A stretch of DNA of 37,600 nt from positions 1 to 37,600 of IMG/VR virus record IMGVR_UViG_3300003323_001445; one strand, 5' to 3'. Below, piece by piece: positions 1,413 to 36,658 of the stretch. The notes under the pieces were generated by a model, which was given only the letters and a program-made list of their open reading frames with translations, did no database searches and was not told the origin of the DNA. This DNA is from a virus. The position numbers and the translations under genes were made by a program. The first letter of the stretch is position 1, and each line of letters begins with the position of its first letter.

Positions 1413-1750
1413 CCGCTGTCCATTACATCGACATTCCCGCACCGATCGACGCCCGAGCTGAAGTGTATCTGGAGGAGAACGGCCGTGTTGCCGGCTTAGT
1501 AACCCATCCCTTCAGCGCCGGCCCTGTCGAACAGCATATGGCTGTCCAGCGCGCGGCGATGTTCGCGACCTACTTGATCGGCAAGGCCGAAAGCCAAGGC
1601 ATACCAAGCGAAAACGTAGCCTTGCACCTTCGAAACATGCCGGGCTTCGAGTTGGAATGCGCGGTCGCCAAGGCCGTCACAGAGTTGCAGGCCGAGGCAA
1701 TTGCCGAAGCCACGCGGAACCTTTTCAGAAAAAAACGGGGGGCTGCATGA
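1409..1750 (+). CDS. Hypothetical early phage protein (113 aa)
   Basis: The ATG at 1409 is chosen because it overlaps the previous stop; an in-frame ATG at 1331 would overlap the upstream gene extensively. The protein begins MTAVHYIDIPAPIDARAEVYLEE (beta-rich) and ends in a basic helix, ATRNLFRKKRGAA. No family recognised. It is translationally coupled to the transposase gene, whose ATG overlaps its stop. Confidence 0.55.
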   Translation: MTAVHYIDIPAPIDARAEVYLEENGRVAGLVTHPFSAGPVEQHMAVQRAAMFATYLIGKAESQGIPSENVALHLRNMPGFELECAVAKAVTELQAEAIAEATRNLFRKKRGAA

Positions 1751-3804: not shown

Positions 3805-3861
3805 GGCGTGGAAGGCTGCAACCTCCCACGCCCTTGAAACTGACGCCGGATGACACCCGGC
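3805..3861 (+). other. Two adjacent hairpins between transposase and ATPase genes
   Basis: Immediately after the A stop, GGCGTGG (3805-3811) pairs with CCACGCC (3826-3832), with an extra inner AGG/CCT pairing. A second hairpin pairs GCCGG (3845-3849) with CCGGC (3857-3861). Neither is followed by a T run, so these are not clear Rho-independent terminators. They could slow read-through, protect mRNA or adjust the A:B ratio. This is the only sizeable gap in the A-B operon. Confidence 0.4.
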
Positions 3862-3884
3862 CGCTTTGACACAGGAAGACTACC

Positions 3885-4847: not shown

Positions 4848-5257
4848 TCCGCATCGTCTCCGGAAATCTGAAAGCCCTTGTCCGCTGGCTGGACCTGGTC
4901 GCCGCCTCAACTGAGGGGCGGCCGGACCAGCCGGTTCTAGGCGCCCACGTCGAAACGTGGCGCGATGTCCTCAGGCGCGCCGTTCCCGAGGTTGAAATCC
5001 TGGAACGGCAGGCCGGTTTCCTTACGGGCGGCGTCGCATTTCGCGGCGTCGACCGCCTCGATGCCGCCTATGCCGAAAACGTCCTGAAGCTGGCCCTGGA
5101 GGCGACCCAGCGCGTTGGCAGTCTGGCCCGCGCCAACGCAGATGCCGAGGCTCTGAAGCAGCTGGAAAAAGACGTCTTTTGCATCGGCGAGGCGCTGGAA
5201 ACCCTGGCCCTCGGCGTCGCACGGCCCGAATCCACAACCGATAAAGGAGCGAATTAA
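4844..5257 (+). CDS. Hypothetical early phage protein (137 aa)
   Basis: Starts at an ATGA overlap with B. Mostly helical: MIRIVSGNLKALVRWLDLV, RRAVPEVEILERQAGFL, and a long helix rich in Ala, Glu and Lys (AENVLKLALEATQRVGSLA, AEALKQLEKDVF). There is no signal peptide, metal site or nucleotide motif. Mu has several small unknown genes at this place (the semi-essential early region). No function assigned. Confidence 0.6.
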   Translation: MIRIVSGNLKALVRWLDLVAASTEGRPDQPVLGAHVETWRDVLRRAVPEVEILERQAGFLTGGVAFRGVDRLDAAYAENVLKLALEATQRVGSLARANADAEALKQLEKDVFCIGEALETLALGVARPESTTDKGAN

Positions 5258-5258
5258 C

Positions 5259-5915
5259 ATGGACGATCTATCCCAAGCCAAAGCCCTTACGGGCACCGAG
5301 GACGTCAAGGGCGTCCAATACATGCGCGATGGCAAGGGCGCCCTGATGCCCGTCCAGAACATCCCGGCGCCGAAGCTGATGCAGGATCAGACGACGCGCC
5401 GGCTTTTCGCCATGGCGGAATCCCTGTCGGCGCAAGTCCAGGCGTTCCGCTCGCAGGCCCTGGCCGATATCGACGCCTTCGTCGAGCTGCTCCGCGAGAA
5501 CTATGGCGCGCAGCGTGGCGGCCAGAAGGGCAACGTCATCCTGATGACGTATGACCAGCTCTACAAGATCGAGCGGTCGGTGGGCGAGTTCATCGACTTT
5601 GGTCCTGAGCTGGAGACGGCGAAGGTGCTGGTGACCGAGCTGCTTCAGGAATGGTCCGAGGGCGCCAACGTCAACCTGAAATCCATCGTCGAGCGCGCCT
5701 TCCAGGTCGACAAGAAGGGCAAGATTCGCCGCAACGATCTCCTGTCGCTCCTGACCCTGGAGATCGAGGACGAGCGCTGGAAGAACGCCATGAAGGCGCT
5801 TTCGGACTCGATCCTGCCGCGCGGCACGAAGGAATACGTCCGCTTCTATCGGCGCGCGACCGTCCGCGACAACTGGACGGCCGTGCCGATCGATATGGCG
5901 GCGGGAGGTGCGTAA
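5259..5915 (+). CDS. DUF3164 family early protein
   Basis: A 218-aa protein matching the general plan of DUF3164 proteins found in the early region of Mu-like phages. It has an N-terminal short beta segment (QYMRDGKGALMPVQNI), a central helix with FRSQALADIDAFVELLRENYG, then NVILMTYDQLYKIERSV and a C-terminal segment with DERWKNAMKALSDSI and TKEYVRFYRR. The role is unknown; it is often next to B and to host-nuclease inhibitor genes. No Gam-like protein is seen in this window. A plausible ribosome site (aaaggagcg) lies upstream of the ATG. Confidence 0.75.
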   Translation: MDDLSQAKALTGTEDVKGVQYMRDGKGALMPVQNIPAPKLMQDQTTRRLFAMAESLSAQVQAFRSQALADIDAFVELLRENYGAQRGGQKGNVILMTYDQLYKIERSVGEFIDFGPELETAKVLVTELLQEWSEGANVNLKSIVERAFQVDKKGKIRRNDLLSLLTLEIEDERWKNAMKALSDSILPRGTKEYVRFYRRATVRDNWTAVPIDMAAGGA

Positions 5916-6085
5916 TGGTCTCGCCGCGCACCCTCCAACGCCGGCGCCGGCGTTTCGGTCCCGTCCGCATCTGTCCGCGCCGCCTTGCCGCCTGGTCCAC
6001 CCTGGTCATTACCTGCGCCGTTATCGCGGTTGTTGTGGTCAAGGGTCTCGTCGCCCTGGCCGGCCTTCTCGCCGAGGTGCTGTGA
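5915..6085 (+). CDS. Small single-span membrane protein (56 aa)
   Basis: Starts at an ATG sharing two bases with the preceding TAA stop (taATG) and ends overlapping the next start. The N-terminal 25 residues are very basic (RTLQRRRRRFGPVRICPRR). One hydrophobic segment follows (TLVITCAVIAVVVVKGLVAL, about residues 29-48), consistent with a membrane anchor with the basic end in the cytoplasm. The early-region location argues against a holin. Function unknown. Confidence 0.55.
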   Translation: MVSPRTLQRRRRRFGPVRICPRRLAAWSTLVITCAVIAVVVVKGLVALAGLLAEVL

Positions 6086-6318
6086 TGGACACCATCCCGC
6101 TCACCGACGAGATGTACGCGCTCTCCATTCGGACCATCCAACTGGCGACAATGGCACCGGGTTTTCTGTCCCGGCACATCGCCGACACCGTGATCGAAGT
6201 CGTCGATCGCGGCCTTGAGTTCGGCCAGATGGCCTGCACCACGAACACGGAATGGGCGGTCGTCAGGACTGCCCATGACGACCTGGTCCGGCACTTCGCC
6301 CAAGACCAGGCCGCGTAG
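6085..6318 (+). CDS. Hypothetical early phage protein (77 aa)
   Basis: Starts at ATG 6085, overlapping the stop of the membrane-protein gene. The protein is helical and soluble: MDTIPLTDEMYALSIRTIQL, then GFLSRHIADTVIEVVDRGLEFG. No motif recognised. A hairpin-containing gap of 57 bp follows its stop. Confidence 0.5.
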   Translation: MDTIPLTDEMYALSIRTIQLATMAPGFLSRHIADTVIEVVDRGLEFGQMACTTNTEWAVVRTAHDDLVRHFAQDQAA

Positions 6319-6327
6319 CAGGCCGAA

Positions 6328-6360
6328 ACGCCCAGCCGGGCGTCTGACCGTGGAGCGGTC
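6328..6360 (+). other. Tandem hairpins in an early intergenic gap
   Basis: ACGCCC (6328-6333) pairs with GGGCGT (6338-6343) around a four-base loop. Just beyond it GACCG (6346-6350) pairs with CGGTC (6356-6360) around a five-base loop. No T run follows, so this is not a convincing intrinsic terminator. The arrangement resembles the double hairpin after the transposase gene. Confidence 0.35.
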
Positions 6361-6375
6361 ACTGATGAGGCCAAG

Positions 6376-6621
6376 ATGAAACCTAGACGCTTCCCTTCGA
6401 GAACGGTTCGCCTGCCGTGGATGCCTGAATGCCGGGATTTCTTCGGCCTTCCATCGGACGAGCAAGATCCCGACTCCTACACGATTACGATCACGGCAAC
6501 TCGCGCCGTGTGGAAATGCACAGCCCGCGGCGTGGGCACGTGGCGGACCGACTACGTCCGCCGTATGGAAAACCCGCTGCCTTATTTCTTGAAGGCATGT
6601 GTCGGCGAGGCCGCCCGATGA
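6376..6621 (+). CDS. Hypothetical early phage protein (81 aa)
   Basis: First gene after the hairpin gap. It contains a basic, proline-containing start (MKPRRFPSRTVRLPWMPEC) and a beta-strand pair (SYTITITATRAVWKCTARGVG), ending in a short helix. It overlaps the next gene by 4 bp (ATGA). No family recognised. Confidence 0.5.
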   Translation: MKPRRFPSRTVRLPWMPECRDFFGLPSDEQDPDSYTITITATRAVWKCTARGVGTWRTDYVRRMENPLPYFLKACVGEAAR

Positions 6622-6875
6622 CCCGGAAACTCGGCAAAATGGTCGGGTCCTTCGGGGAGTACTGTATTTTCAAGACGGAGGGTGGCTATGTCGTCCGTCT
6701 GGAGACGTTGTTCGCGAGGCGCCCGCGCCGCGGTTCCGGCCTTCGGACAATGACGCCTGGCCGCCGGTATACCGATATCAATTCGGAGCCGGTCGCGACG
6801 CTCGAGGCCGCCGATGACATCATTGCCGACGCCTTGATTGCCGACGCCTTGGCACATCCGCGGGCGCGGCAATGA
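6618..6875 (+). CDS. Hypothetical early phage protein (85 aa)
   Basis: Starts at an ATGA overlap; an upstream in-frame ATG at 6429 would lie inside the previous gene. The N-terminal half is beta-rich (GEYCIFKTEGGYVVRLETL). The C-terminal helix contains the duplicated peptide IADAL-IADAL, produced by a perfect 15-bp tandem repeat in the DNA. Function unknown. Confidence 0.5.
   Translation: MTRKLGKMVGSFGEYCIFKTEGGYVVRLETLFARRPRRGSGLRTMTPGRRYTDINSEPVATLEAADDIIADALIADALAHPRARQ
6822..6851 (+). repeat. 15-bp perfect tandem duplication
   Basis: The unit ATTGCCGACGCCTTG occurs twice with no spacer (6822-6836 and 6837-6851). It is in frame and adds five residues to the C-terminal helix of the host gene, so it looks like a recent slippage duplication. 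Confidence 0.9.
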
Positions 6876-9140: not shown

Positions 9141-9773
9141 ATGGCAAGGGACAATTCACAAATCGCGATACCGGAATATCCGATCGGGAGCCGTTACGAG
9201 ACGGTCGCCCGCGGGGTGCTGGGCATTGAAGGCGGTCTGGCGGCGCTGGGCGCCGACCACGGCGGCATCACCAATCTCGGTATATCGCTGCGCTTCCTCA
9301 TTACCGAGGGCAAGATCGACGCGAACCACGACGGATTCGCCGATTATGATCTCGACATGGATGGCGACATCGATGGCGCCGATATCCGCCTGCTCACGCC
9401 GTCCCACGCGCTGAACCTGTTCTGGCGCTGTTTCTGGCGGCGGCTCGATCTGGACCGCCTGCCGGTGCCGATCGACGGCGCCGTCTTCGACCAGGCGGTC
9501 AATGGTGGCACGTTTGCGGCCGTCAAGATGCTGCAGCTGGCGCTCAACCAGTTCCATCTCGGCATGGATCTGACCGTCGATGGCCAACTCGGCCGCATCA
9601 CGGCCGCGCGTGTCGGGCAGATCGCGCGCCAGCAGGGCGGTATGGCGCAGCTGGTGAAGCTCTATCGCGACCAGGCGGAAGCGCGGTACCGCGCCATCGT
9701 CCGCGCCGATCCCAGCCAGTCGGTGTTCCTTGACGGGTGGATCTCGCGCGCCCGGAGGCTGGGTAATGTGTGA
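9141..9773 (+). CDS. Endolysin: GH108 muramidase with peptidoglycan-binding domain
   Basis: A 210-aa cell-wall hydrolase. The N-terminal part matches the glycoside hydrolase 108 pattern VARGVLGIEGG (catalytic Glu at residue 30), followed by GADHGGITNLGIS. The C-terminal half (about 105-205: FDQAVNGGTFAAVKMLQLALN, DLTVDGQLGRITAARVGQI) matches the associated peptidoglycan-binding domain. Between them, residues 60-81 contain two D-x-N/D-x-D-G calcium-loop-like motifs. No signal peptide is seen, so release would depend on the holin next door. ATG 9141 is preferred to the in-frame GTG at 9132; neither has a clear ribosome site. Confidence 0.88.
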   Translation: MARDNSQIAIPEYPIGSRYETVARGVLGIEGGLAALGADHGGITNLGISLRFLITEGKIDANHDGFADYDLDMDGDIDGADIRLLTPSHALNLFWRCFWRRLDLDRLPVPIDGAVFDQAVNGGTFAAVKMLQLALNQFHLGMDLTVDGQLGRITAARVGQIARQQGGMAQLVKLYRDQAEARYRAIVRADPSQSVFLDGWISRARRLGNV

Positions 9774-10002
9774 TCCTCAGGCCCTGCCGCAAAGCCGCTC
9801 CGCCCGCTGGGCGCGCCCGTTCCTTGTCTATGTCATCGGCTGGATACTGCTCGTTCATTACGGGCTGCTTCCCATCGCCGAGGCACTTCTCCATGCGACG
9901 TACACCCACCTTACCGCTGTGGAGCTGGGCATCATCGTGGCGCCGGTTATCTATTATTTTTTCCAGCGCACGCGCGAAAAGGAAAAGGGGATCGCGTCGT
10001 GA
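9766..10002 (+). CDS. Putative holin (78 aa)
   Basis: Overlaps the end of the endolysin gene by 8 bp. It has a positively charged N-terminus (SRSARWARP), a first hydrophobic span (FLVYVIGWILLVHYGLLPIA), a second span (LTAVELGIIVAPVIYYFF) and a charged C-terminal tail (QRTREKEKG). Size, topology and position between endolysin and spanins fit a two-span phage holin that would permeabilise the inner membrane. It shares a look with holins of gene transfer agents in alphaproteobacteria. Membership is by topology and context only. Confidence 0.7.
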   Translation: MCDPQALPQSRSARWARPFLVYVIGWILLVHYGLLPIAEALLHATYTHLTAVELGIIVAPVIYYFFQRTREKEKGIAS

Positions 10003-10508
10003 GCGGCTTCAGCAGCATCCCCCTGTTTATCGCGATTGTCGCCGCGGCTGCCGGCGTCGGCGGTGTGTTCGCCGCCGTCAAGGAACACGACCAGGTCGTG
10101 GCGCAGCAAACCGAGATCGACCGCCAGGCGCAGTGTGTCAGAGCGCTGGGGGCGAGGGATGGCCGGGCCGTATCCCACGAATGCGACCCGGCCATCATCC
10201 TCTATTTCAACGGCGCTGAAGCCTCGTCGACCTGCGACCAGGCCCTGGTCATGGGCGGCGTGGCGCCGGAATGCTCGCCTATCGTCGCCCAACTGCAGGG
10301 CGCAACCGTCCTTCTGAAATCCCAACTCTCCGCCACGGTCGCCGAGCGTGACGCGGCGATCGCCCGTGCCGAAAAGCGCGCGGTCGACCTCAACCAAAGG
10401 AAAGTCCAAGATGCCGCTGCGCTCGCTCATGCGCCTCGCCAGCCTGACGGTCTTATTGTTTGCAACGCTGACTGCCTGCGCGCCCGCTTCGAAGCCCCTG
10501 GACCTTAA
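9999..10508 (+). CDS. Inner-membrane spanin (Rz-like)
   Basis: A 169-aa protein starting with GTG that overlaps the holin stop. One N-terminal membrane anchor (IPLFIAIVAAAAGVGGVFAAV, about residues 7-27) is followed by a periplasmic part with several cysteines and a long heptad-like helix (LLKSQLSATVAERDAAIARAE). This is the plan of i-spanins, which pair with an outer-membrane lipoprotein to fuse the two membranes. Support comes from the lipoprotein gene that starts inside it in another frame, as for lambda Rz/Rz1. Some C-terminal cysteines are unusual. Confidence 0.65.
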   Translation: MSGFSSIPLFIAIVAAAAGVGGVFAAVKEHDQVVAQQTEIDRQAQCVRALGARDGRAVSHECDPAIILYFNGAEASSTCDQALVMGGVAPECSPIVAQLQGATVLLKSQLSATVAERDAAIARAEKRAVDLNQRKVQDAAALAHAPRQPDGLIVCNADCLRARFEAPGP

Positions 10509-10719
10509 GGCGCCGCCGCCGGCCATCGTCACGCGCACGGAGACCGTGACGATCTGCCCCGCCGAGCTGAAGGCCGATCCCGGCCGTCCGCCGGCGGTAC
10601 CCGACGGCGCGGTCATCCAGGCCAACGACGCCGGCCAGGGCTGGCTTTCGGCGCTCTATGAGTATGCCAACGGCTTAAGCCGCCGTTTTACCGACGCGCA
10701 GAAGGCGTGCCCCAAATGA
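10411..10719 (+). CDS. Outer-membrane spanin lipoprotein (Rz1-like)
   Basis: A 102-aa protein that starts 98 bp inside the inner-spanin gene in a different frame, with a good ribosome site (aaaggaaag). MPLRSLMRLASLTVLLFATL-TAC is a lipoprotein signal peptide with the lipobox Cys at residue 23. After it come a proline-rich stretch (LKAPPPA) and a short periplasmic domain. Longer in-frame starts (10348) would spoil the signal peptide. Partner of the Rz-like protein in the last lysis step. Confidence 0.82.
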   Translation: MPLRSLMRLASLTVLLFATLTACAPASKPLDLKAPPPAIVTRTETVTICPAELKADPGRPPAVPDGAVIQANDAGQGWLSALYEYANGLSRRFTDAQKACPK

Positions 10720-10943
10720 CCGACTTCATGGATCGGGCGCAGGCGCTGGAACAGCGTCTGGGCGACCAAGCCCTGACCGTCACGACCGAAGGCCTGGCAC
10801 TGCCGGGCCTGACCGTTTGCGAGGACTGCGGCAATCCCATCAGTGCGGCGCGCCTTGAGGCGCTGCCGTCGGCCCGGCGATGCGTGCCGTGCCAGGACCA
10901 GGCGGAGCGTCTCGCCCGCGGATATCTTGGAAAGGGCGCGTGA
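10716..10943 (+). CDS. DksA/TraR-type C4 zinc-finger protein (75 aa)
   Basis: Starts at an ATGA overlap with the Rz1-like gene; an in-frame GTG at 10707 is less likely. A short helical N-terminus (DFMDRAQALEQRL) precedes CEDCGNPISAARL...RCVPCQ, giving cysteines 35, 38, 56 and 59 in C-x2-C-x17-C-x2-C spacing. This is the DksA/TraR zinc finger. TraR-type phage proteins bind RNA polymerase and mimic DksA with ppGpp. It lacks the long coiled coil of DksA, as TraR does. Many Mu-like phages carry one at this place. Confidence 0.85.
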   Translation: MTDFMDRAQALEQRLGDQALTVTTEGLALPGLTVCEDCGNPISAARLEALPSARRCVPCQDQAERLARGYLGKGA

Positions 10944-11308
10944 TGGGCCAGTGGCAACTTATTTTTCTCATCGCGTCATTGCTCGTCTCAACGATCGCCT
11001 TGGCTTTTTCTGCCGCGACCTTCTACCGGGCCGGGCGCTGGAAGGAGTCCGAGGACGGCAAGGAACTGGAGCGGCGTCTTAGTGCGGCAGAAAAATGGGC
11101 GGAATCGCCAGCCGCCCTGGCTCTGATCGACCTGGTCGACGAACATTCCCGGCAGCTGGCTGCGGGAGAAGAGCGCTTTGAAAATCTTGCGACCAAGGCC
11201 GACGTGGCGCGCCTTCAGGCCGAAGTAAGCGGGCTTGAAAAGGCGGTCGACCGTGTCGATGCCGGCGTCGTCCGCATTGAAAAAATCTTGATGGAGCATA
11301 ACCGGTGA
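10943..11308 (+). CDS. DUF2730 family phage protein (Mu gp25-like)
   Basis: A 121-aa protein with an N-terminal membrane span (LIFLIASLLVSTIALAFSAATF) and then a long coiled coil (ERRLSAAEKWAES, LQAEVSGLEKAVDRVDAGVVRIEKIL). This matches the DUF2730 architecture found just upstream of terminase genes in Mu-like phages. Function unknown. It shares one base with the preceding stop (TGATG arrangement) and overlaps the next gene by GTGA. Confidence 0.75.
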   Translation: MGQWQLIFLIASLLVSTIALAFSAATFYRAGRWKESEDGKELERRLSAAEKWAESPAALALIDLVDEHSRQLAAGEERFENLATKADVARLQAEVSGLEKAVDRVDAGVVRIEKILMEHNR

Positions 11309-11616
11309 CCGCCCTTTCCGATGCGATCGATCACGACCTTCGTCTTGCCATCCTGCAACTGCTTGCCGAGGAGGTCGGCTACCAGGCCAATAGCCGGGTC
11401 CTGCATAGTGGCGTGGTGTCTATGCGCTATCGGGTCAGCCTGGACAAGGTCGTCACCGAAATCGACTGGCTGGCTGAGCAGCGCCTGGTCGAGTCGGAGG
11501 ATATCGGTCGCGGCGTCATACTCGCCACCGCCACCCAGCGTGGCCGTGATGCCGCTGCCGGTTTGATCGCCGTGCGCGGTGTGTCGCAGCCGGACCCCCT
11601 GACAAAGAGGGGCTGA
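11305..11616 (+). CDS. Small winged-helix phage protein (VpaChn25_0724/Mu gp26-like)
   Basis: A 103-aa protein starting with GTG overlapping the DUF2730 stop. It has an ArsR-like winged-helix pattern: DHDLRLAILQLLAEEVGYQANSRVL, MRYRVSLDKVVTEIDWLAEQRLV, then a wing strand (GRGVILATATQRG). It fits the small phage family found between DUF2730 and the small terminase in Mu-like phages. The role is not known; DNA binding is likely from the fold. Confidence 0.65.
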   Translation: MTALSDAIDHDLRLAILQLLAEEVGYQANSRVLHSGVVSMRYRVSLDKVVTEIDWLAEQRLVESEDIGRGVILATATQRGRDAAAGLIAVRGVSQPDPLTKRG

Positions 11617-12176: not shown

Positions 12177-13693
12177 AGGAGGAACCGATCCTGCGGGACG
12201 AAGGTGGTCCCTTTGGCGCTTCGAAGTTCGAAATGCCGGAGGCCATGGACGAGTTGGAGACAGCCGACCTGCTACTGCCCTATCAAAAGCGCACCATCGC
12301 CACGATCCAGGTCAACAAGGTTACGTTCGTCGAAAAGTCGCGGCGGATCGGACTCACATGGGGCGTTGCCCCCGAAGCTGTCCTGGTCGGTTCGTCGGAG
12401 CGCGCTGCCGGCGGTATGAATGTTTTTTACATGGGCTACACGCTGGAGATGGCGCGCGAGTTCATCCTCTACTGTGCCCTGTGGTGCAAAGCTTACAAGA
12501 TCGCCGCCTCGGCCATCCAGGAGTTCGACGCGTCGGTCGAGTACGGCGTCGAAGAAAAGGACATCCGGGCATTTCGCATCACCCTTCCATCAGGTTTCCG
12601 GATTGAGGCCCTGCCTTGCCGGCCGGAAGTCCTGCGGGGTAAGCAGGGCCTGGTGATCTTCGACGAAGTCGCGTTCATGAAGAACGTCAAGGCCACGATT
12701 AAGGCGGCCATGGCGCTGATCATCCACGGCGGCCGCCTTGTTTTCATCTCCTCGCACAACGGGACCGACAACGCCTTCAACCAGGAGATCGACAGAATCC
12801 GGGCCGGCAAGCGCAAGGGTGCCGTCGTCACCATTACGTTCCAGGATGCGATCGCCGACGGCCTATACGAGCGTATCAAGCTTTGCACGCCGCCCGGTGA
12901 AGAGATTGCCGACAAAGAACAGTGGATCCAGGACGTCTACGACTTCTATGGCGAAGACGCCGAGGAGGAACTGGATGTTGTGCCGGCGGCCGGGTCGGGA
13001 ACGTGGATCCACGCCCAGGACATTGCGGCTTGCGAGCACCCCGAGGCCGGCAGGCCGGAGCTGTACCAGGGCGGCCTGGTCTACATCGGCTACGACGTGG
13101 CCAGGCGCAATGACGGGATCATCATCTGGGCCTTCGAACTCGTAGGCGATGTGCTGTGGCTGCGCGATCGCTGGGAAGAGCGAGGCAAGAAGTTTTCGGA
13201 GCAGTCAGCCGCGCTGGCGGATATCGTTGCCAAGCGTCGCGGCCGGGTCGCCGCAATTCGGATTGACCAGACCGGCATGGGTGAAAAGGTCGTTGAAGAC
13301 GAGGCGGCGAAGTACGGAGAAACCCTTTGCCAAGGTCGCCTGTTAACAGGACCGGAGCGCCTTAGGTTGGCCACCATTCTTCGAGACCGCTTCGAGTCGT
13401 GCAAGATTCGAATTCCGCCGGATCCGGTAATCCGCGTCGATCTCCGGGCGCTGAAGCGCGCCGGGCCCGAAGGCAAGGCTCTCGTCGAAGGCAAGGAGGT
13501 GCACCCCGATCGGTTCTGGGCGGCGGGCCTCGCATGTGAAGCGGCCGAGGAAGGCACTGTTCTCTACGACTATACGCCCGCGCGTCAGGACAACGCCCGC
13601 GATGACGACGACGATTTTCGCCGGCGATGGGGCGAGCGCGGCGATAGCGGCGGGCACACCGCTCATGGTCTCGGCCGCGGAGGGAGCTGGTAA
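12173..13693 (+). CDS. Large terminase subunit (Mu gp28-like)
   Basis: A 506-aa packaging ATPase and nuclease. The ATPase half has the Walker A-like EKSRRIGLTW (54-63), a QK motif upstream (YQKR), Walker B GLVIFDE (159-165) and a coupling motif FISSHNG. The nuclease half has YIGYDVARRNDG (D308) and AIRIDQTGMGEKV (D365), matching metal-binding acids of the RNase H-like fold. The last 25 residues are acidic then glycine-rich. Mu-like phages package headfuls starting near the left end of the integrated genome. Confidence 0.93.
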   Translation: MKEEPILRDEGGPFGASKFEMPEAMDELETADLLLPYQKRTIATIQVNKVTFVEKSRRIGLTWGVAPEAVLVGSSERAAGGMNVFYMGYTLEMAREFILYCALWCKAYKIAASAIQEFDASVEYGVEEKDIRAFRITLPSGFRIEALPCRPEVLRGKQGLVIFDEVAFMKNVKATIKAAMALIIHGGRLVFISSHNGTDNAFNQEIDRIRAGKRKGAVVTITFQDAIADGLYERIKLCTPPGEEIADKEQWIQDVYDFYGEDAEEELDVVPAAGSGTWIHAQDIAACEHPEAGRPELYQGGLVYIGYDVARRNDGIIIWAFELVGDVLWLRDRWEERGKKFSEQSAALADIVAKRRGRVAAIRIDQTGMGEKVVEDEAAKYGETLCQGRLLTGPERLRLATILRDRFESCKIRIPPDPVIRVDLRALKRAGPEGKALVEGKEVHPDRFWAAGLACEAAEEGTVLYDYTPARQDNARDDDDDFRRRWGERGDSGGHTAHGLGRGGSW

Positions 13694-15381
13694 TGGTCAA
13701 GCGTGTTTCGTCTATCCTCGGGCCTGACGGTAAGCCGATCGAATACGATGTCGACGTGCTCGGCCGGGATATTACGACGCCCGTCCTGGGCGGCGTGCGC
13801 CAGCTCATGGACGGTCACCCTGCCCAGGGACTGGACCCCGTCCGCCTGGCGCGCATCATGCGCGATGCCGAACAGGGCAATGCCCAGGCGCAGCACGAAC
13901 TGGCGGAGGAGATCGAGGAGAAGGATCTTCATTACCAGGGTGTCCTGGGAACTCGAAAGCGCGCCGTGGCCCAGCTCGACATTACGGTTGAAGCTGCGTC
14001 CGACGACGATCCCGAAGACCAGGACAATGCCGACTTTGTCCGCGCATGGCTGGATCGTGACACTCTCGAAGACGAACTCTTCGACATACTGGATGCCGTC
14101 GGCAAGGGCTTCAGTGCGACCGAGGTTATTTGGGACCTCGGTGACAAAGCCTGGCTTCCGATCGGTCTTGAGCGCGCCGACCAGCGCTTTTTCGAATTCG
14201 ATCCGATCGACGGCAAGACGCTCCGGCTGAAGGGCGGAGTCGACGGGACGGCGGGCCTGCCGGAGGAATTGAAGGCGTTCAAGTATATCATCCACGCTCA
14301 CCCGGCCAAGTCAGGCCTGGCGATCAGGGGCGGCCTCATTCGCGGTATCGCGTGGGCCTATCTGTTCAAGAACATCGCGCTGAAGGACTGGACGATCTTC
14401 GCCGAGATTTATGGTCAGCCCCTGCGCGTCGGCAAGTATGGCCCGTCATCGACGAACCAGGAGCGGGCCGCCTTGCTGCGCGCCGTCCAGGACATCGGCA
14501 CGGATGCCGCGGCAATCATTCCCGCCTCGATGATGATCGAGTTTACCAACGGCATGGCGGCCGGGAATTACGAGGTCTATTTCAAGCTCCTGACCTATCT
14601 GGACGATCTGGAGAGCAAGGCTGTCCTGGGTCAGACGGGAACGACGGACGCCAAGCCGGCCGGCCTTGGCAGTGGCCTTGGCAACGTCCACAACGAAGTC
14701 CGCGGCGACATCAAGCGGAGCGACGCCAAGAAGCTCGCGGCCACCATCAACAAGACCCTGGTGCGTTGGATCGTCGACTTCAACAAGGGGCCACCCAAGT
14801 CCGGCGCCTATCCGCGGGTGAAGATCGGCCAGTCCGATGTCTTCACCAAGGAGGACATGGACATCCTCGGCGATTTCGTCGACCGTGGCGGCGAGGTAGA
14901 GATGTCGGTCGTGAGGGACCGCATCGGCTATCCGGACCCGCCCGAGAAAGCGAAGGACGGAAAGCCCGTCAAGCTGATGAAGCCGGCGGCGAAGGCATCT
15001 CCAAATCCTGCGCCCGTGGGCCAGGCGGGGCCGGCGCCCGGCCCGGAAGGTGCGGCGGCGGCGACTTTGGCCTCAGAGGCGGGCTTACAGGGGCTTATGA
15101 GGGGCTTAAAACTCGGGCGAGCCCTGTCGATGTCACCAGGCGCGCCGGCGGACGCGATCGACGCCGCGGTGGCCGATATGGCCGACCAATGGCAACCGGT
15201 CATGGCGCCGATGTTCGATCCCCTGCAAAAGGCCTTCGACGCGGCCACCTCTTACGAGGATCTGAAGACGCGTCTGCTGGCGGCCGTCGACAAGATGGAC
15301 GTGCGCGCCATGGCGGAGCTGCTGGCGGAGGCCCAGTTCATGGCGCGCATGGCCGGGGATAGCGGCAATGCCCTCCAATAG
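13693..15381 (+). CDS. Portal protein (DUF935, Mu gp29-like)
   Basis: A 562-aa protein. The N-terminal and central parts match the DUF935 portal family: HPAQGLDPVRLARIMRDAEQG, QHELAEEIEEKDLHYQGVLGTRKRAV, then IIHAHPAKSGLAIRGGLIRG, DWTIFAEIYGQPLRVGKYG and GTTDAKPAGLGSGLGNVHNEVR. After about residue 430 an Ala/Pro-rich linker leads to a helical C-terminal part (LQGLMRGLKLG). It would form the dodecameric DNA channel and connector of the head. The GGGGCTTA-like triplet in the linker DNA simply encodes repeated Gly-Leu. Confidence 0.93.
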   Translation: MVKRVSSILGPDGKPIEYDVDVLGRDITTPVLGGVRQLMDGHPAQGLDPVRLARIMRDAEQGNAQAQHELAEEIEEKDLHYQGVLGTRKRAVAQLDITVEAASDDDPEDQDNADFVRAWLDRDTLEDELFDILDAVGKGFSATEVIWDLGDKAWLPIGLERADQRFFEFDPIDGKTLRLKGGVDGTAGLPEELKAFKYIIHAHPAKSGLAIRGGLIRGIAWAYLFKNIALKDWTIFAEIYGQPLRVGKYGPSSTNQERAALLRAVQDIGTDAAAIIPASMMIEFTNGMAAGNYEVYFKLLTYLDDLESKAVLGQTGTTDAKPAGLGSGLGNVHNEVRGDIKRSDAKKLAATINKTLVRWIVDFNKGPPKSGAYPRVKIGQSDVFTKEDMDILGDFVDRGGEVEMSVVRDRIGYPDPPEKAKDGKPVKLMKPAAKASPNPAPVGQAGPAPGPEGAAAATLASEAGLQGLMRGLKLGRALSMSPGAPADAIDAAVADMADQWQPVMAPMFDPLQKAFDAATSYEDLKTRLLAAVDKMDVRAMAELLAEAQFMARMAGDSGNALQ

Positions 15382-15880
15382 CGGAACCTTTGCCGAGCTG
15401 TTCGCCTTCAGCCGGGCCCGGACAGCCCAGTATGTGGACTCCGCCGGCGCCACACAGACGGCGCCGATCGACACACCCCGGCTGGACCACGATCTGGATG
15501 GCGCGGTCCTGGGCCTGCTGGTCGAAGGCCGGCCGACGACATTGAAGCCCGACCAGGTCGCCCTGCAGGCGGATCTGCCCGACGCGCCGATATTAGGCAC
15601 GGTCCTTCACGACTACATCGACGCCGGCGGCGATCGCTGGCGGCGCGCCATCTATACGCGCTCGCCGCGCGCCACGGTCGAAGGCTGCCTGGCCATTCAG
15701 GGGTGGCATCGGCGAATCGGCTTTTTCCCCGCGCTTCTGCCGCGTTCCGAGGATCACGGCCCGACCCGGCCGGTCCGGTATGAGGGCGAGTCCTGGGAGA
15801 TGTGCGGCCTCCTGGTCGATATCGACGGCAAGGCCCTCGATATCGGCGACGGTTTTCATTCGCTTCTAATCGAGAGTTAA
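15368..15880 (+). CDS. Hypothetical protein after portal (170 aa)
   Basis: Starts 14 bp inside the portal gene and stops 3 bp before the fibre-like gene, so it is probably co-translated with both. It is beta-rich and soluble: TAQYVDSAGATQTAPIDTPRLDHD, then GHRR-poor segments ending in GESWEMCGLLVDIDGKALDIGDGFHSLL. It has no signal peptide or catalytic motif that I can name. Its position suggests a head-linked or fibre-linked structural or anchoring protein. Not recognised. Confidence 0.6.
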   Translation: MPSNSGTFAELFAFSRARTAQYVDSAGATQTAPIDTPRLDHDLDGAVLGLLVEGRPTTLKPDQVALQADLPDAPILGTVLHDYIDAGGDRWRRAIYTRSPRATVEGCLAIQGWHRRIGFFPALLPRSEDHGPTRPVRYEGESWEMCGLLVDIDGKALDIGDGFHSLLIES

Positions 15881-15883
15881 GCC

Positions 15884-18800
15884 ATGGCTGATGCCAGCGA
15901 TATTATAACGAAGACCGGAAGCCAGCTTGGCGACCTTACCGACTTGGCCGATGGCGACAAGATCGTCGTCGTGCGTGACGGCGTGCCCCTTGGGACCATC
16001 GACGCCACCACGCTGATCGATGCGGTGGCCGCAGGGTATACCGGCGAGGTCAGCGACCTGGCCGCGCAAATCTCGGCTGATGCCGACCAGGTCGCCAGCG
16101 ACAAGTCGGCGGCACAGACCGCAAAGACTGGCGCAGACACGGCGAAGGCCGGAGCTGATACTGCAAAGGCCGGCGCCGACGCATCGGCCTTGACTGCGCA
16201 AACCTATGCCGCACAGGCGCAGGCTGTCATTTCTTCGCTGAACGACCTGGGCACGATCGGCCGGCCGACGAACCCTGTCACCGGTACCGGAACAAGCGCG
16301 GTCACGGCGGTTCTGCTGTCCAGCGACACGACCAGGTCGCGCGAGGTCTACCAAGTCCGCGCCTACAACAATTCCGGCTCGAACAAGACGATCAACCTTC
16401 GCCGCTTCTCAGGCACGGTCGGCGCCCTGGTCAAGCAAGGCAGCGACGTGCCGGTCGTATTGCCGCCCGGCCTCAACACGATCGTGCTTGGTACAACGAT
16501 CACGGTTCAGCCGGGCGAGTATCTGGGCTTCCAGACGCCGGCGAATGCCTACACCTATCTCGGCTCGACAGCCGCCGACGTTTCAGCCGTATGGGATAAC
16601 GGCGACGTCTCGACCGTTGTCAGCACGTCCGTCCAGACGACGACCCAGCTGCAGATCGGCTTCGACTGGCGTTTCCAGGCCGTCAACAAGACGGACTTCG
16701 CCGCAGTGAAGGCGCAGGCTTCAACGGCCTATTCCGCCGCAACCCAGGCGAACAACACGGCCACCGCTCTCTACGACTACGGCACGATCGGCCACGTCGG
16801 CGCCCTGGCAGCCGGTACCGGCAACGTTTCGGCCAATACCTACGTTTTTGCGGACGCGGCCACTACGCTGCGCGAGATCTACCAAATTCGTGCCTACAAC
16901 AACACCGGCGTGGACAAGGTCATCAAGCTACGTCGGTTTGGCGGCAGCATCGGCGCCCTGGCGCAGAACGGTTCAGACGTCCTGGTCACGATCCCGGCCG
17001 GCAGTACCGGCGCCACGCCGATTGCGCTTTCGACGACCGTGACCCTGCAGATCGGCGAGCGCCTGGGCTATTACACGCCGCTCGGTGGCCATACCTATCT
17101 TACCGGTGGCGGCGGCGACAGCGGGGGCATCTATACCGGCGCCGGCGACGTGACGTCGGTCACCTCCACGACGGCCGACACGACCACGCTGATGGAGATC
17201 GGCTTTGACTGGCGCTATCAGCGCGTCAATTCCACGGACATGAGAACGCTGCAGAACAGCGCCAGCAACACCGCCTTGCTCGCAGCCGCTTACGTCAACC
17301 AGAAAACGGTCGGCGCCTCGACGACGCCGGTCACCGGTTCAAGCCTTTCGACCTCGACCTTCTGTCTGAATGATGCGGCGCCAGCTGACATGCTGCTCTA
17401 CAGCATTACCTACTATGCGCGAAACACAACGACCTGGGCGGCCAAGGTCTTCAGCAAGTCGGGTTCCAATTTCACCCAGGTCGGCGGCGATATGCTGATC
17501 ACGCCGCCGGCGACAGGGCTTCAGACCTACACCTTCCCGTCGCCGATCTTCGTTGCCAAGGGCAATTACCTGGGCCTGCACGGCGGCGGCACGAGCACTT
17601 CCAACCAGGCCATCGGCTTCAATGCTGCACCTGGGGCGGACAATCCGTTCTGGGGCTCGGGCGCCGGCAACGTGACCAGCTTTACCAATGCGGCCAATCC
17701 GACGACCGGAAACCGCTTCGAGGTGCAGTTCAACTGCCAATATTACAAGGCCAGCACCGCCTCGTTCACCGTCACGCTGGCGACCTCGGACAAGGTGGGT
17801 GTGGTCGGCGACTCGCTGTCGGAGGGCTTTCCTTCCCTGGAAGGCAAGGCTTGGATACACAAGGTTTCGGCCGGGACGAAGCACCTCTTCCTTAACTGGT
17901 CCCGCTCGGGGGCGAGCCTGGCGGACAACGGCACTCAAAACCTGCCTCAGTTGCGCGTGGGAACCACGCGGTTCCATGGGACGCTGTCGTACAAAGACTA
18001 TGGCTGCACGCAAGCCTACGTCATGTCGATCGGCAACGACTACAACAGCGGCGCCGGCATCACCGCCGCGCGATATCAACAGCGCATGCGCGAAATGGCC
18101 GAGACACTCTATGGCCTCGGCGCGCAAAAGGTCATCTTCGGGTCCGAGCAGCTCGACTATTACGGCCCGGCCGACGAACTGCTCGTCCAGCAGGGCGCCG
18201 AGCAGAACCGTTGCGACTTCATCAACTGCAAGGCCTACGCAAAGGTGGTAGGTAAGCAGTCGTCCGGTTCCGGCGACGCCGGCTTCTGGAATGGCGTACA
18301 CCCCGGCGTCAGGACAAACGGCATCTTCGGCGTGCCGATCGAGCGCTATTTCCGTGCCAGGCCGCCGCGTTCGTCGGTCAAGTTCTTCCGGCCGCGCCAG
18401 GGCTGGACCGTCACGACGACGGCCGACCTGTTCTATCAGCCTGACGATCGCTATTACTCGCGGCGCCAACGCTGGAGGGAAATCCGCATCGGCGCCTGGC
18501 GCTTCAATTCCGGCCAGGAGAAGTACTATGACGAACTGGCCAGCGTGACGGGCACCCAGGGGGCCGGCTACTCGGACACGGCGTCCTGCGAATATCTTCA
18601 GCTCCTGGGCGGCGCTTCGGTCGCCTTCACCAACTACGCGCTGATGAACCTGGTCCTGCCGGCGCTTCCGCCGCACGTTCTCTCCGCGACGATCCTGGTC
18701 GATTCGTCGGTCGGCGCGAACGTCTATGTTCCCGACAACTACGTCGGTACCCTGGCCGACGACACACCGGTCGGGGCCTGGGTCCAGGTAGCCGGGAGCG

Positions 18801-19477
18801 GCGGCCGCTACCCAGTCTCGCTGACGGTGCTGAAACGCGCGATCCAGGACGGCGACGAATTGCCCGTTTTGATCGAGAAGTCCGGCAGCTTCAGCCTGAC
18901 CTCGGCGTGCGGCATCGAGCTGGTGACCGATGGCGTGGCTAAAGTGATGCCGGCGCCCGACCCCTATGCGGACGTTCGGCCGACCGGTTCGGAACTGCTC
19001 GCCAACACCAACTTCCCGACCTCCGGCGCGCCCACAGGCTGGACAGTGACCGGAACGGTTACCGGCGCGGCATCTCCAGACGGTAATGTTCCGCTCGGCG
19101 GCAACGGCATCGTGACGGTCGACAACGCCAACTATGTCCAGCAGGCGACAGTAACGTTCGCGGCCGACAACTACCAGTCCAGGCGCGCCCGCATCTATGT
19201 CACGGGCCGCCGCTGGGTCCCGAAGTTCGTATCTTCGACGGATACCTATCCGGACTCGACCAAGATCACGTCGGATACCTTCGACCTGGCGCAGCTATAT
19301 GTCGGAGTCCTGATGGGCGGGTCGAACATCAGTTTCCAATGGAAGGCGATCGACGTGGGCTGGGAGGAGCGGATGTTCGACATCTTCATTCCGTCGGGCG
19401 TCACGTCTTTGACTATCGTCATTCGCGGTGGCACCACGGCTATCCAGGTCGCCACCGCCAGCCTGAAGATGTTCTAG
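15884..19477 (+). CDS. Large repeat-containing fibre-like protein with SGNH/GDSL esterase domain
   Basis: 1197 aa, the largest gene in the window. Residues 1-60 (DIITKTGSQLGDLTDLADGD) look like a fibre N-terminus; 60-115 form an Ala-rich helix with repeated TAKAGAD units. Two clear tandem beta-rich modules follow at about 121-283 and 298-463, sharing GTIG, YQ(V/I)RAYNN, LRRF, GSDV and IGFDWR; a divergent third runs to about 630. An SGNH hydrolase domain follows: GDSLSEG (Ser644), SIGNDYN (Asn718) and NGVHPG (His806). The C-terminal 350 residues are beta-rich. It probably deacylates or cuts surface polysaccharide. The position between portal and MuF is unusual for a fibre. Domain reading is confident; its place on the virion is inferred. 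Confidence 0.85.
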   Translation: MADASDIITKTGSQLGDLTDLADGDKIVVVRDGVPLGTIDATTLIDAVAAGYTGEVSDLAAQISADADQVASDKSAAQTAKTGADTAKAGADTAKAGADASALTAQTYAAQAQAVISSLNDLGTIGRPTNPVTGTGTSAVTAVLLSSDTTRSREVYQVRAYNNSGSNKTINLRRFSGTVGALVKQGSDVPVVLPPGLNTIVLGTTITVQPGEYLGFQTPANAYTYLGSTAADVSAVWDNGDVSTVVSTSVQTTTQLQIGFDWRFQAVNKTDFAAVKAQASTAYSAATQANNTATALYDYGTIGHVGALAAGTGNVSANTYVFADAATTLREIYQIRAYNNTGVDKVIKLRRFGGSIGALAQNGSDVLVTIPAGSTGATPIALSTTVTLQIGERLGYYTPLGGHTYLTGGGGDSGGIYTGAGDVTSVTSTTADTTTLMEIGFDWRYQRVNSTDMRTLQNSASNTALLAAAYVNQKTVGASTTPVTGSSLSTSTFCLNDAAPADMLLYSITYYARNTTTWAAKVFSKSGSNFTQVGGDMLITPPATGLQTYTFPSPIFVAKGNYLGLHGGGTSTSNQAIGFNAAPGADNPFWGSGAGNVTSFTNAANPTTGNRFEVQFNCQYYKASTASFTVTLATSDKVGVVGDSLSEGFPSLEGKAWIHKVSAGTKHLFLNWSRSGASLADNGTQNLPQLRVGTTRFHGTLSYKDYGCTQAYVMSIGNDYNSGAGITAARYQQRMREMAETLYGLGAQKVIFGSEQLDYYGPADELLVQQGAEQNRCDFINCKAYAKVVGKQSSGSGDAGFWNGVHPGVRTNGIFGVPIERYFRARPPRSSVKFFRPRQGWTVTTTADLFYQPDDRYYSRRQRWREIRIGAWRFNSGQEKYYDELASVTGTQGAGYSDTASCEYLQLLGGASVAFTNYALMNLVLPALPPHVLSATILVDSSVGANVYVPDNYVGTLADDTPVGAWVQVAGSGGRYPVSLTVLKRAIQDGDELPVLIEKSGSFSLTSACGIELVTDGVAKVMPAPDPYADVRPTGSELLANTNFPTSGAPTGWTVTGTVTGAASPDGNVPLGGNGIVTVDNANYVQQATVTFAADNYQSRRARIYVTGRRWVPKFVSSTDTYPDSTKITSDTFDLAQLYVGVLMGGSNISFQWKAIDVGWEERMFDIFIPSGVTSLTIVIRGGTTAIQVATASLKMF
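16244..17273 (+). repeat. Two tandem coding modules (about 177-residue period) in the fibre gene
   Basis: Module 1 (starting near 16244) and module 2 (starting near 16775) encode related beta-rich segments offset by 177 residues (531 bp). Shared short peptides in the same order are GTIG, RAYNN, LRRF, GAL, GSDV, GE-LG, YTYL, and IGFDWR. DNA identity is only partial, so this is an old internal duplication and not a recent copy. Confidence 0.85.
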
Positions 19478-19486
19478 GAGAGGACA

Positions 19487-19663
19487 ATGGAAAAAACGGA
19501 ATTGGCCGCGTTGCTGAAAGAGGCCCTGATCAATGAGGGCGGAGCGGCTTACATGCACCGGGACGCAGACCCTAGCGACTTCGTCATCGACGGAGCCGTG
19601 GATCTCGAAATCGTCGCGCAATATCTGATTGACCGGCTGTCGATCGAGCGTAAGCCCGGCTGA
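19487..19663 (+). CDS. Small hypothetical protein between fibre and MuF genes (58 aa)
   Basis: An open frame with a strong ribosome site (aggagagga) six bases upstream of its ATG. The product begins MEKTELAALLKEALINEGG, continues with AYMHRDADPSDFVIDGAVDLE and ends VAQYLIDRLSIERKPG. It is acidic and helical, without membrane segments. Nine bases separate its stop from the MuF start. It could be a fibre chaperone, a structural linker or an immunity factor for the nuclease-like tail of MuF; nothing visible decides between these. Confidence 0.6.
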   Translation: MEKTELAALLKEALINEGGAAYMHRDADPSDFVIDGAVDLEIVAQYLIDRLSIERKPG

Positions 19664-19671
19664 CTTTCGCC

Positions 19672-21459
19672 ATGACCGTTTCCCTCAGCCCCTTGAAGCC
19701 GAAAGACGCGCTGGCCTACTTCCGGCAGAAGGGGCTGAGGACCAGCTTTGCCTATCAGGACGTTTGGCAAGACGAACATGCCAAGGCGTTCACCGTTGCC
19801 AAGGCCATGTCGATGGATATCCTGACGGACATTCGCGACGCGCTCGATACCGCCATGGCCGAGGGCAAGACTTTCGAGCAGTTCAGGAAGGAACTGGCGC
19901 CGATCCTTCAGGCCAAGGGTTGGTGGGGCCGCAAGGAGATGGTCGATCCGTTGACCGGCGAGAAGAAGCTGGTCCAGCTGGGCTCCGATCGCCGGCTGCG
20001 CGTCATCTTCAACACCAATATGCGGACGGCGTACAACGTCGGCAACTGGCAACGCAGCTGGGCTACGCGGGCCAGCTTCCCCTATCTGATCTACCATCAC
20101 GCGGACGGCCTGCGCTTCCCGCGCCCGGAGCACCAGGCCTGGGACGGCGTCTGCCTGCCGATCGAGCACCCGTTCTGGAAGACGCATTACCCGCAGTGCG
20201 CCTGGGGCTGTAAGTGTTCGACGGAATCGGTCTCGAAGCAGATGCTGATCGACCGCAAGCTGTCGGTTACCAAGGATGCCGATATCGCTCGCTTCCCCAT
20301 GAAGGAGTACGTCAATCCTAGGACCGGGGAGGTCAGCCAGGTCGAGCAGGGCATCGACCCGGCCTGGAACTACAACCCGGGCCAATCGCCGCTGAAGGGC
20401 CTGACGCCACGGCCGGCGCCACCGACGCCCGGTGCGCCGCCGCCGGCCGTGCCGCCTCAGCCGCCCGCGGATCTCGCCAAGCCGTCGACCACGCCGGCGC
20501 CGGCGACAAAGCCGGCAGAGACGGCTGCGCCGGCGGCCGAGGTCCAACCTGCGGCCAAGCCGATCGAGACGGCGGTCGACGGCTTCCTTAAGGTCTTCGA
20601 CGCCGCCGCCCAGGACAAGATCGTCACCGACCGGACGGGCTGGCCCCTGCCGATCGGGCGCGACCTCTTCACGACCACGGACGGCCGGCTGCGTTCGCCG
20701 CAGTCCGCCCTGGTCCCGTGGCTGCCTGTGGTGGGCCGGGCGCTGAAGGAGTACGACCAGGTCGCGTGGCACTGGCGCCCGCCGGCGGTCCCGAGCTTTC
20801 AGCCGGCCGAGATCCGCGCGGTGCTGGATGACGCGCAGAGGGGCGTCGATTCGCGTCTGGTGGCCCGTTTCGGCAAGGTCCAGGACTGGCTGGTCAAGGT
20901 CGCCAAGGAACACGGCCAGGCGCTCCAGGACTTCGACTACTCGCTGCCGGCATCCGAGGCGCGGCATATCCTCCTGCGCCACGGTGACGCGGTACTGGAG
21001 GCCGGGCGCAAGCAGGTCGCGGTGACGCCGGCAGACATCGAGGGACTGCCGGATCTCGTGACCCGGGCGAGCCATGTCATCTTCGGCCGCGTGACGAACA
21101 AGGGCCTGCCGGCCGTGATCTTCATCACGCAGAAGGCCGACCTGGTCTATCTGGTTGTCATGGAGGTTCGCGCTCGGCGCTGGCAGCTGGCTGCGAAGAC
21201 GATGCGTAAGTACCCCGCCATAGCCGATGTTAACCGAGCGATCGGTTCCGTCGGCCCCAACGTCCTAAACGGTGGCGGGGCTGATGACGGTATAGTCGAT
21301 ATCGCCGCCCTCGGCAAGGCAGTGACCAAGCTGCCACGCGAAGAGTTGGTCCGCCGCTACAGCAAGCGGCTTGACAAGTTCCTGATCACCGTCGATTTTG
21401 CCCGCGACACTTGGACCTACGATGTCCAGCCCGCTAAGGCGCCGTTAAAGCGGCCTTAA
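19672..21459 (+). CDS. F: MuF head-morphogenesis protein with C-terminal BECR-type toxin-like extension
   Basis: 595 aa, longer than a plain MuF protein. Residues 1-240 hold the MuF domain: ALAYFRQKGLRTSF, FNTNMRTAYNVGNWQR, and the His/Cys-rich core from His154 (EHQAWDG) through HPFWKTHYPQCAWGCKC (Cys180, Cys182). Residues 243-300 are a Pro/Ala/Thr linker. Residues about 318-370 (GWPLPIGRDLF, LPVVGRALKEYDQVAWHW) resemble the start of a phage BECR nuclease of the PBECR2 type, cut short. Residues about 430-520 (RHILLRHGD with His432 and His437, VTPADIEGLPDLV, AVIFITQKADLVYLVVMEVR, LAAKTMRKY) look like a second BECR-type domain. MuF proteins can carry toxins injected with phage DNA. The MuF call is firm; the nuclease call is from pattern only. 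Confidence 0.85.
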   Translation: MTVSLSPLKPKDALAYFRQKGLRTSFAYQDVWQDEHAKAFTVAKAMSMDILTDIRDALDTAMAEGKTFEQFRKELAPILQAKGWWGRKEMVDPLTGEKKLVQLGSDRRLRVIFNTNMRTAYNVGNWQRSWATRASFPYLIYHHADGLRFPRPEHQAWDGVCLPIEHPFWKTHYPQCAWGCKCSTESVSKQMLIDRKLSVTKDADIARFPMKEYVNPRTGEVSQVEQGIDPAWNYNPGQSPLKGLTPRPAPPTPGAPPPAVPPQPPADLAKPSTTPAPATKPAETAAPAAEVQPAAKPIETAVDGFLKVFDAAAQDKIVTDRTGWPLPIGRDLFTTTDGRLRSPQSALVPWLPVVGRALKEYDQVAWHWRPPAVPSFQPAEIRAVLDDAQRGVDSRLVARFGKVQDWLVKVAKEHGQALQDFDYSLPASEARHILLRHGDAVLEAGRKQVAVTPADIEGLPDLVTRASHVIFGRVTNKGLPAVIFITQKADLVYLVVMEVRARRWQLAAKTMRKYPAIADVNRAIGSVGPNVLNGGGADDGIVDIAALGKAVTKLPREELVRRYSKRLDKFLITVDFARDTWTYDVQPAKAPLKRP

Positions 21460-35935: not shown

Positions 35936-36658
35936 ATGAAGCGCATCGACACGCCCACGGCCGTTGGAAACAGGTTCGTCCACAGTAGCCCTCAGACCGG
36001 CCAACTCGCGACCCAGGTGAGTCCGGAATGGTGTAACAGCGTCCAGGAGACGATCTGCAAGGTCATCGAGGATGCCGGCATCACGATCGACCCGGACGCC
36101 GACGACGTTGTCGCGAACCTGAAGACCGCGATCGCCACGATGGTCACCGCCGGCGTCAATGCCGCGATCGGGCCGCATATAACCCAGCTGGGCGAAGGCA
36201 AGTGGATGCACGCCGCGACCTACGACGCGACCTACTACAAAGTGCCGGACGGGACCACCCTCAGCCGCACCACCTATGCCGCACTTTGGACGGCCGTCCA
36301 GGCATCCGGCATGCTGGCGGCCGACGCCACGGACAAGACGAATAACCCCGGCAAATGGGGCCGCGGCGATGGCGCTACGACCTTCCAGCTTCCCGACCTG
36401 CGCGACCAGTTCCTTCGTATCTACAAAGGCGCCAAGGCCGGCGCCCTCGGCCCGGCCCTGGGCGGCTTCAAGGCCAACCAGAACAAGCAGCACAACCACA
36501 CCGTCGCCCAAGCGCCCAGCCTGGCCTCGACCGGCAGCATCACGTCGGGCGACGACTTCTCGAACACCGTCGACCATACCATCAACACCGGCGATTCCGG
36601 CGGCGATGAGGCGGTGCCCGACCACACCTCGGTCATCTACGTCATTCGCGTTCTCTAA
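35936..36658 (+). CDS. Short tail fibre with collar domain
   Basis: A 240-aa protein, much shorter than the Mu S fibre. The N-terminal 80 residues (IDTPTAVGNRFVHSSPQTGQLATQVSPEWCNSVQETI) are of the kind used to dock on the baseplate. The middle holds a phage collar-type segment: TYYKVPDGTTLSRTTYAALW, GRGDGATTFQLPDLRDQFLR. The end contains NKQHNHTVAQAPS and HTSVIYVIRVL, with His-rich collar features. It may be the receptor-binding tip. No fibre chaperone (U) gene follows. Confidence 0.85.
   Translation: MKRIDTPTAVGNRFVHSSPQTGQLATQVSPEWCNSVQETICKVIEDAGITIDPDADDVVANLKTAIATMVTAGVNAAIGPHITQLGEGKWMHAATYDATYYKVPDGTTLSRTTYAALWTAVQASGMLAADATDKTNNPGKWGRGDGATTFQLPDLRDQFLRIYKGAKAGALGPALGGFKANQNKQHNHTVAQAPSLASTGSITSGDDFSNTVDHTINTGDSGGDEAVPDHTSVIYVIRVL

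Follow-up and report, generated by a model that had tools for sequence, protein, structure and literature searches.

Our comparison supports the ideas that a 1,197-aa fiber-like protein (p1197), encoded between the portal and MuF genes of this virus, is its main receptor protein and that the 170-aa protein encoded just before it (p170) is its partner. The window (the whole stretch of 37,600 nucleotides that was analyzed) belongs to a 38,070-base IMG/VR record with a Mu-like gene order, and the insert is probably a cassette for receptor binding in a Mu-like, contractile-tailed phage of Caulobacter-type bacteria (Caulobacteraceae), an explanation that as a whole we hold with reasonable but far from full confidence. 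p1197 would be an elongated fiber with three beta modules as its shaft; these modules and the C-terminal domain may bind a surface polysaccharide (cell-surface glycan), from which the SGNH-like domain would most likely remove ester (acetyl) groups. p170 would act as an adaptor that is bound by the docking domain of p1197, and the fiber would take the role of the large baseplate fiber in other Mu-like phages. Recombination beyond the docking domain would exchange the fiber body and thereby alter which surface polymer is recognized. The presence of the protein in the virion, its esterase activity and substrate, and its binding to p170 are predictions from sequence.

The three ORFs between portal and MuF that had been described in the first-pass annotation (170, 1,197, and 58 aa) are real, with the coordinates given in Table 1. 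The p170 ORF overlaps the end of the portal gene by 14 bases, the gaps after p170, p1197, and the 58-aa protein (p58) are 3, 9, and 8 bases, and all genes lie on the plus strand, which indicates that the insert belongs to the head operon. Base composition is unchanged across the insert. Portal and MuF adjoin in most relatives without an insert, the distance from portal match to MuF match being 15 to 105 bases in L002 to L007, L016, L018, L019, and L023 to L025. The junction takes other insertions too, as seen in L017, where a Dam-like methylase gene (positions 5198 to 5989) lies between portal and MuF. In L020 (positions 1404 to 6667), the portal forms the start of an 858-aa ORF, after which come three fiber-like genes (154, 340, and 328 aa) and then the protease; a separate MuF was not detected in this locus.

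Table 1. Features of the portal-MuF region and of the tail end in the window
Feature	Coordinates	Strand	Basis
Mu-type portal, upstream boundary	13693..15381	+	PF06074, E 3e-90
p170, portal-adjacent partner protein, putative fiber adaptor	15368..15880	+	homologs always directly after portal
p1197, esterase-bearing fiber (predicted)	15884..19477	+	ORF, 1,197 aa, plus domain evidence
p1197, putative N-terminal docking domain, residues 1-52	15884..16039	+	kept in L026 and L044; bodies unrelated
p1197, predicted coiled coil, residues 53-121	16040..16246	+	Ala-rich heptad-like sequence
p1197, three tandem beta modules, residues 119-622	16238..17749	+	shuffle z-scores; DNA repeat family D1
p1197, SGNH-like esterase domain, residues 622-952	17747..18739	+	homology to phage tail proteins, weak PDB profile hits
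p1197, S644, N718, and H806 of the SGNH-like domain	codons 17813, 18035, and 18299	+	
p1197, C-terminal beta domain, residues 962-1180	18767..19423	+	27% identity to C terminus of phage P2559S protein (E 2e-10)
p58, small protein of unknown function	19487..19663	+	weak phrog_14080 match, E 5e-4
MuF, downstream boundary, C-terminal PBECR3 nuclease-like domain	19672..21459	+	PF04233 (E 5e-15), PF18812
Tail-collar protein, 240 aa, own different N-terminal domain	35936..36658	+	PF07484

p1197 has the layout of a fiber. Its N terminus reads MADASDIITKTG, and residues 53 to 121 are modeled by AlphaFold2, at low confidence (pLDDT 40; too poor for a fold search), as a single long helix. The tandem beta modules noticed at first reading are three in number (residues 119 to 296, 297 to 472, and 473 to 622) and are significant against shuffled sequences, with z-scores of 46.8, 9.0, and 9.8. 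Pattern scans of p1197 over the viral and genome contigs revealed no relatives.

The domain that follows is well supported as a relative of the SGNH hydrolases with an incomplete classical triad. In SGNH hydrolases, the Asn forms the oxyanion hole and is not part of the triad, and an Asp usually lies three residues before the His. In p1197 the motifs are GDS (residues 642 to 644), SG (675 and 676), GN (717 and 718), and HP (806 and 807), so that Ser644 stands in a block I GDS, and Gly676 (block II) and Asn718 (block III) occupy oxyanion-hole positions; Ser644, Gly676, Asn718, and His806 are invariant in 5 to 6 homologs of the domain. The Asp of the block V motif DxxH is absent, the sequence being N803-G-V-H806, and the homologs also have a residue other than Asp at that position. 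The "SGNH esterase triad Ser644, Asn718, His806" that had been proposed therefore holds as far as the residues are present and invariant in a small family, but the word triad is a misnomer, as Asn718 corresponds to the oxyanion hole and the block V Asp is missing.

The best Pfam model, Lipase_GDSL_2, falls below its cut-off (E 0.025; 15.5 bits versus 32.9), the best PDB matches of the domain profile are mostly GDSL/SGNH hydrolases, each of them weak (E 0.02 to 1), and an hhalign comparison of this domain with the SGNH bodies of the other fibers gives a weak score (probability 11). Alternating strands and helices appear around residues 637 to 790 in the low-confidence model. The domain is homologous to tail proteins encoded after the tape measure gene in Croceibacter, Bacteroides, and Alistipes phages, among them P2559S gp25, which its depositors labeled as SGNH containing. 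The proteins of Croceibacter phages P2559Y and P2559S (1,248 and 1,257 aa) share both the esterase and the C-terminal domain with p1197 (25 to 27% identity) and have the same Ser, Gly, Asn, and His; their N termini, however, are unrelated, and their genes lie after the tape measure gene in the tail module.

The first-pass annotation had proposed a check of relatives for variation of the insert, and this check came out in its favor: p170 and the start of the fiber are kept, and the body is exchanged for another SGNH-like body. Homologs of p170 are 78% identical in L026 (an uncultured Asticcacaulis MAG) and 51% identical in L044 (another Caulobacteraceae genome), and the start of the fiber is 65% identical to p1197 over residues 1 to 52 in L026 and 45% identical over residues 1 to 65 in L044. 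The fiber bodies of L026/G001 and L044/G139 (828 and 673 aa) are unrelated to that of p1197, and their SGNH-like domains belong to different subfamilies. A conserved N terminus joined to an exchanged body is found in the window, in L026, and in L044, as well as in fibers encoded upstream of terS in L010, L011, and L022. Since a constant adaptor and docking domain with a variable body are the hallmark of receptor-binding proteins, this pattern suggests that the p1197 cassette is modular and functions in host recognition.

What follows the fiber also differs among the relatives, and no counterpart of p58 is present in L026 or L044. The fiber of L026 is followed by a small protein and by a 479-aa SGNH protein with a signal peptide-like start (positions 13427 to 14866); this GDSL esterase, which has a TTG start and lies in the virion operon, is a paralog of the SGNH-like domain of the neighboring fiber (E 3e-16). 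In L044 a 318-aa laminin-G-like protein follows. In L044 (positions 9302 to 11560), a change of frame within a GGGGG run puts portal and p170 into a single ORF; sequencing error, true fusion, and frameshifting are all possible causes. This join was dropped as proof of contact between the two proteins, as it consists of a one-base frame change and p170 keeps its own Shine-Dalgarno sequence and ATG.

Homologs of p170 with 33 to 43% identity are present in sphingomonad phages, directly after the portal every time; with p170 alone as the query, none was found in viral contigs or in annotated phages. In L010, L011, L022 and its identical prophage copy L027, L045, and L046 (Sphingomonadaceae and related viral contigs), p170 is the sole gene separating portal from MuF, and a fiber of 630 to 828 aa is encoded upstream of terS. 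These fibers have an N terminus of about 118 residues in common and exchanged bodies, which are GDSL proteins by Pfam in L011 and L027, contain GDS in L010 and L045, and resemble a beta-helix by eye in L046. The SGNH domains of L022 (upstream of terS) and L044 (in the insert) are homologous (E 8e-25), with L027 hitting Pfam GDSL, so the two positions hold the same kind of protein. The docking domains of the two types gave a match that is no more than suggestive (probability 31, E 5e-4), and only residues 58 to 104 or so of the sphingomonad-type fibers are common to tail fibers of other phages.

A head-side fiber (630 to 1,197 aa), located either here or upstream of terS, is present in all 8 p170-positive phages with enough flanking sequence and in 2 of the 24 p170-negative relatives (Fisher P = 4e-6). 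The comparison was repeated for contractile phages only (8/8 versus 2/6, P = 0.015), as the p170-negative phages are mostly siphovirus-like and tail type is a partial confounder; both P values are optimistic, because the genomes are related and independence is overstated. The co-occurrence supports the proposal that the 170-aa protein is a partner of the fiber. The two exceptions, L067 and L068, are prophages of one Caulobacteraceae genome, with fibers of 1,046 and 928 aa encoded directly after the portal without p170. The two share a different, unrelated N terminus of 170 aa, which has no known relatives among annotated phages; homology of p170 to this N terminus was considered and rejected (hhalign probability 0.3). 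By eye, the two bodies are esterase-like (CDSLT and GQSDSEG motifs) and differ from each other.

At the other end of the genome, the 240-aa gene had been taken for a very short tail-fiber gene, but its product is a normal collar-domain protein and not a truncated long fiber. It is 91% identical in the G001 prophage and shares its N-terminal domain with 8 relatives, and among the p170-positive phages whose tail end is visible, gp48 is followed by the gene for a short protein (about 220 to 245 aa), these proteins having an N-terminal domain in common. Judged by sequence, the gene of the window is a collar gene, and what is absent beside it is a large fiber. In the Mu-like Burkholderia phage KS10, a 742-aa tail fiber (gp48) follows the equivalent collar protein (gp47) and has its N-terminal 74 residues in common with it (49%), and large proteins are also found at the tail ends of POA1180 and G1057. 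The argument from a short tail fiber to p1197 as the main one is weak, because L005 and G877 have only short tail-end fibers and no head-side fiber. The proposal that the large protein is an esterase-type receptor-binding protein gains from the body swaps and from the SGNH-like domain in all three fibers concerned.

The position of p1197, between portal and MuF, is not that of a Mu-type tail fiber, which directly follows the gp48/collar genes. A profile of 9 collar N termini matched p1197 only at E 0.8 to 1.4, versus 2e-13 for L005 and 0.003 for KS10 gp48, and found no collar-type N terminus in the head-side fibers. This suggests that p1197 docks at another site. KS10 gp48 is similarly a large fiber of a Mu-like contractile phage and shares a linker module with the sphingomonad head-side fibers (query residues 58 to 99, 50%), but it is encoded at the tail end, just behind the collar gene, it shares the collar N terminus, and no p170 is present.

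For the site of attachment, we slightly and tentatively favor the head or neck over the baseplate; any other site appears improbable. A serious competitor, though one we would not bet on, is that p1197 is a baseplate tail fiber whose gene happens to lie in the head operon, with p170 as a hinge or assembly factor. Wherever the tail end of a p170-positive phage is visible, the phage is contractile, and the large fiber that is missing beside the collar gene would then be the head-side one. Homologous bodies or modules occur in true tail fibers (Mae-JY28, KS10 gp48 residues 101 to 142, and the Croceibacter tail proteins), and the putative tail fiber gp102 of Agrobacterium phage 7-7-1 is numbered between terS (orf100) and terL (orf112) (PMC3517404). 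Against these points stand the N terminus of p1197, which is unlike the baseplate domain of collar proteins and large fibers, and the tail modules of the p170-positive phages, none of which (0/8) contains this fiber gene.

The mosaic structure of the genomes bears on the same question. In a comparison with G001, identity is 82 to 100% for most early and most tail genes of the window but 33 to 78% for TerS, TerL, portal, p170, docking domain, protease, and capsid. p170 and the docking domain hence belong to the exchanged head block, although gene linkage alone could explain this. Tail genes are mostly 88 to 100% identical, versus 78% for p170 and 65% for the docking domain, which speaks against a baseplate fiber. 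The divergence of p170 correlates with that of the portal (0.73) and with that of gp48 (0.80), in 5 phages only. MuF is 94% identical, though most other head genes are at 33 to 65%; this protein carries the PBECR3 nuclease-like (toxin) domain and seems to travel separately.

A more specific form of head attachment, in which p170 pentamers would be the base and p1197 the fiber of a capsid-vertex spike like that of RcGTA, is possible but somewhat doubtful. RcGTA has capsid-borne glycan-binding fibers composed of the base Rcc01079 and the fiber Rcc01080, which docks to the base through residues 2 to 10 (PMC7296036), and capsid fibers are also found in phiCbK and 7-7-1, phages of related hosts (PMC12796354). 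The position of the gene, the presence of p170 beside the portal in all p170-positive loci, and a docking domain that differs from that of the tail are consistent with such a spike. The only PDB match of p170, however, is to a stretch of about 55 residues of the fiber Rcc01080 (residues 42 to 97, E 5e-5), and neither p170 nor its profile matched the base Rcc01079 in the PDB set. As this stretch lies outside the docking peptide and the motif recurs in proteins that bear a phage-tail annotation, the match is no evidence for a head position, and p170 as an RcGTA-like spike base was rejected, the match being to a common motif of the fiber. The AlphaFold2 model of p170 (pLDDT 43) was too poor for a fold search. 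The (Ile/Leu)-Gly repeat of the RcGTA docking peptide is absent from the N terminus of p1197. The two systems are alike in the two-protein idea, the alphaproteobacterial host, and the motif common to p170 and Rcc01080; they differ in that the window has no detected base homolog and no Leu-Gly docking peptide and that no enzyme is reported for RcGTA.

That p1197 is a nonvirion protein, either a moron or an enzyme secreted from the late operon, is very improbable: the junction does take nonstructural genes such as the methylase of L017, and L026 has its extra 479-aa SGNH protein with a signal peptide-like start at this place, but p1197 has a fiber architecture and no signal peptide, and the coupling to p170 and the conserved docking N termini point to assembly.

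Phage 7-7-1 is also a contractile phage of an alphaproteobacterium and has receptor-contacting fibers on its head, but its capsid-fiber gene has not been identified (PMC12796354), so that sequence comparison is impossible. For temperate Klebsiella phages, the esterase activity of SGNH receptor-binding proteins has been confirmed (PMC13123978). These prophage fibers and gp63.1 of coliphage G7C (cited there) resemble p1197 in their exchangeable SGNH-type domain and predicted polysaccharide deacetylation; they are described as tail fibers, whereas here the gene lies in the head operon and the protein has a p170 partner, another N terminus, and no block V Asp. One possibility, which we put forward tentatively, is that in Mu-like contractile phages of Caulobacterales and Sphingomonadales the main receptor enzyme sits on the head or neck via p170, a dedicated adaptor encoded beside the portal, and trims glycans from the head side, with the body as a swap cassette and a short collar protein as all that the baseplate retains.

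If the fiber is on the head, these phages would join the few whose receptor protein is enzymatic, swappable, and not on the tail, and p170 would serve as a sequence handle for finding others. Capsid fibers have been seen without a known gene, for example in 7-7-1 (PMC12796354), and the signature of p170 and docking domain would make the question of the gene testable. Even with the fiber on the baseplate, annotators whose search for receptor proteins is confined to the tail module would overlook the main one here.

At the right end of the window, positions 36674 to 36931 encode an 85-aa protein that matches the Acb2/Tad1 hairpin domain (PF24729, E 3e-14) and is thus a candidate anti-CBASS/anti-Thoeris protein; it did not turn up in those regions of the G001 prophage that were compared. 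Proteins of 415 to 467 aa are encoded in three sphingomonad genomes (L047, L048, and L049) outside any recognized Mu-like prophage, and those of L047 and L049 have LGLGLG-like N termini that resemble the docking peptide of the RcGTA head spike.
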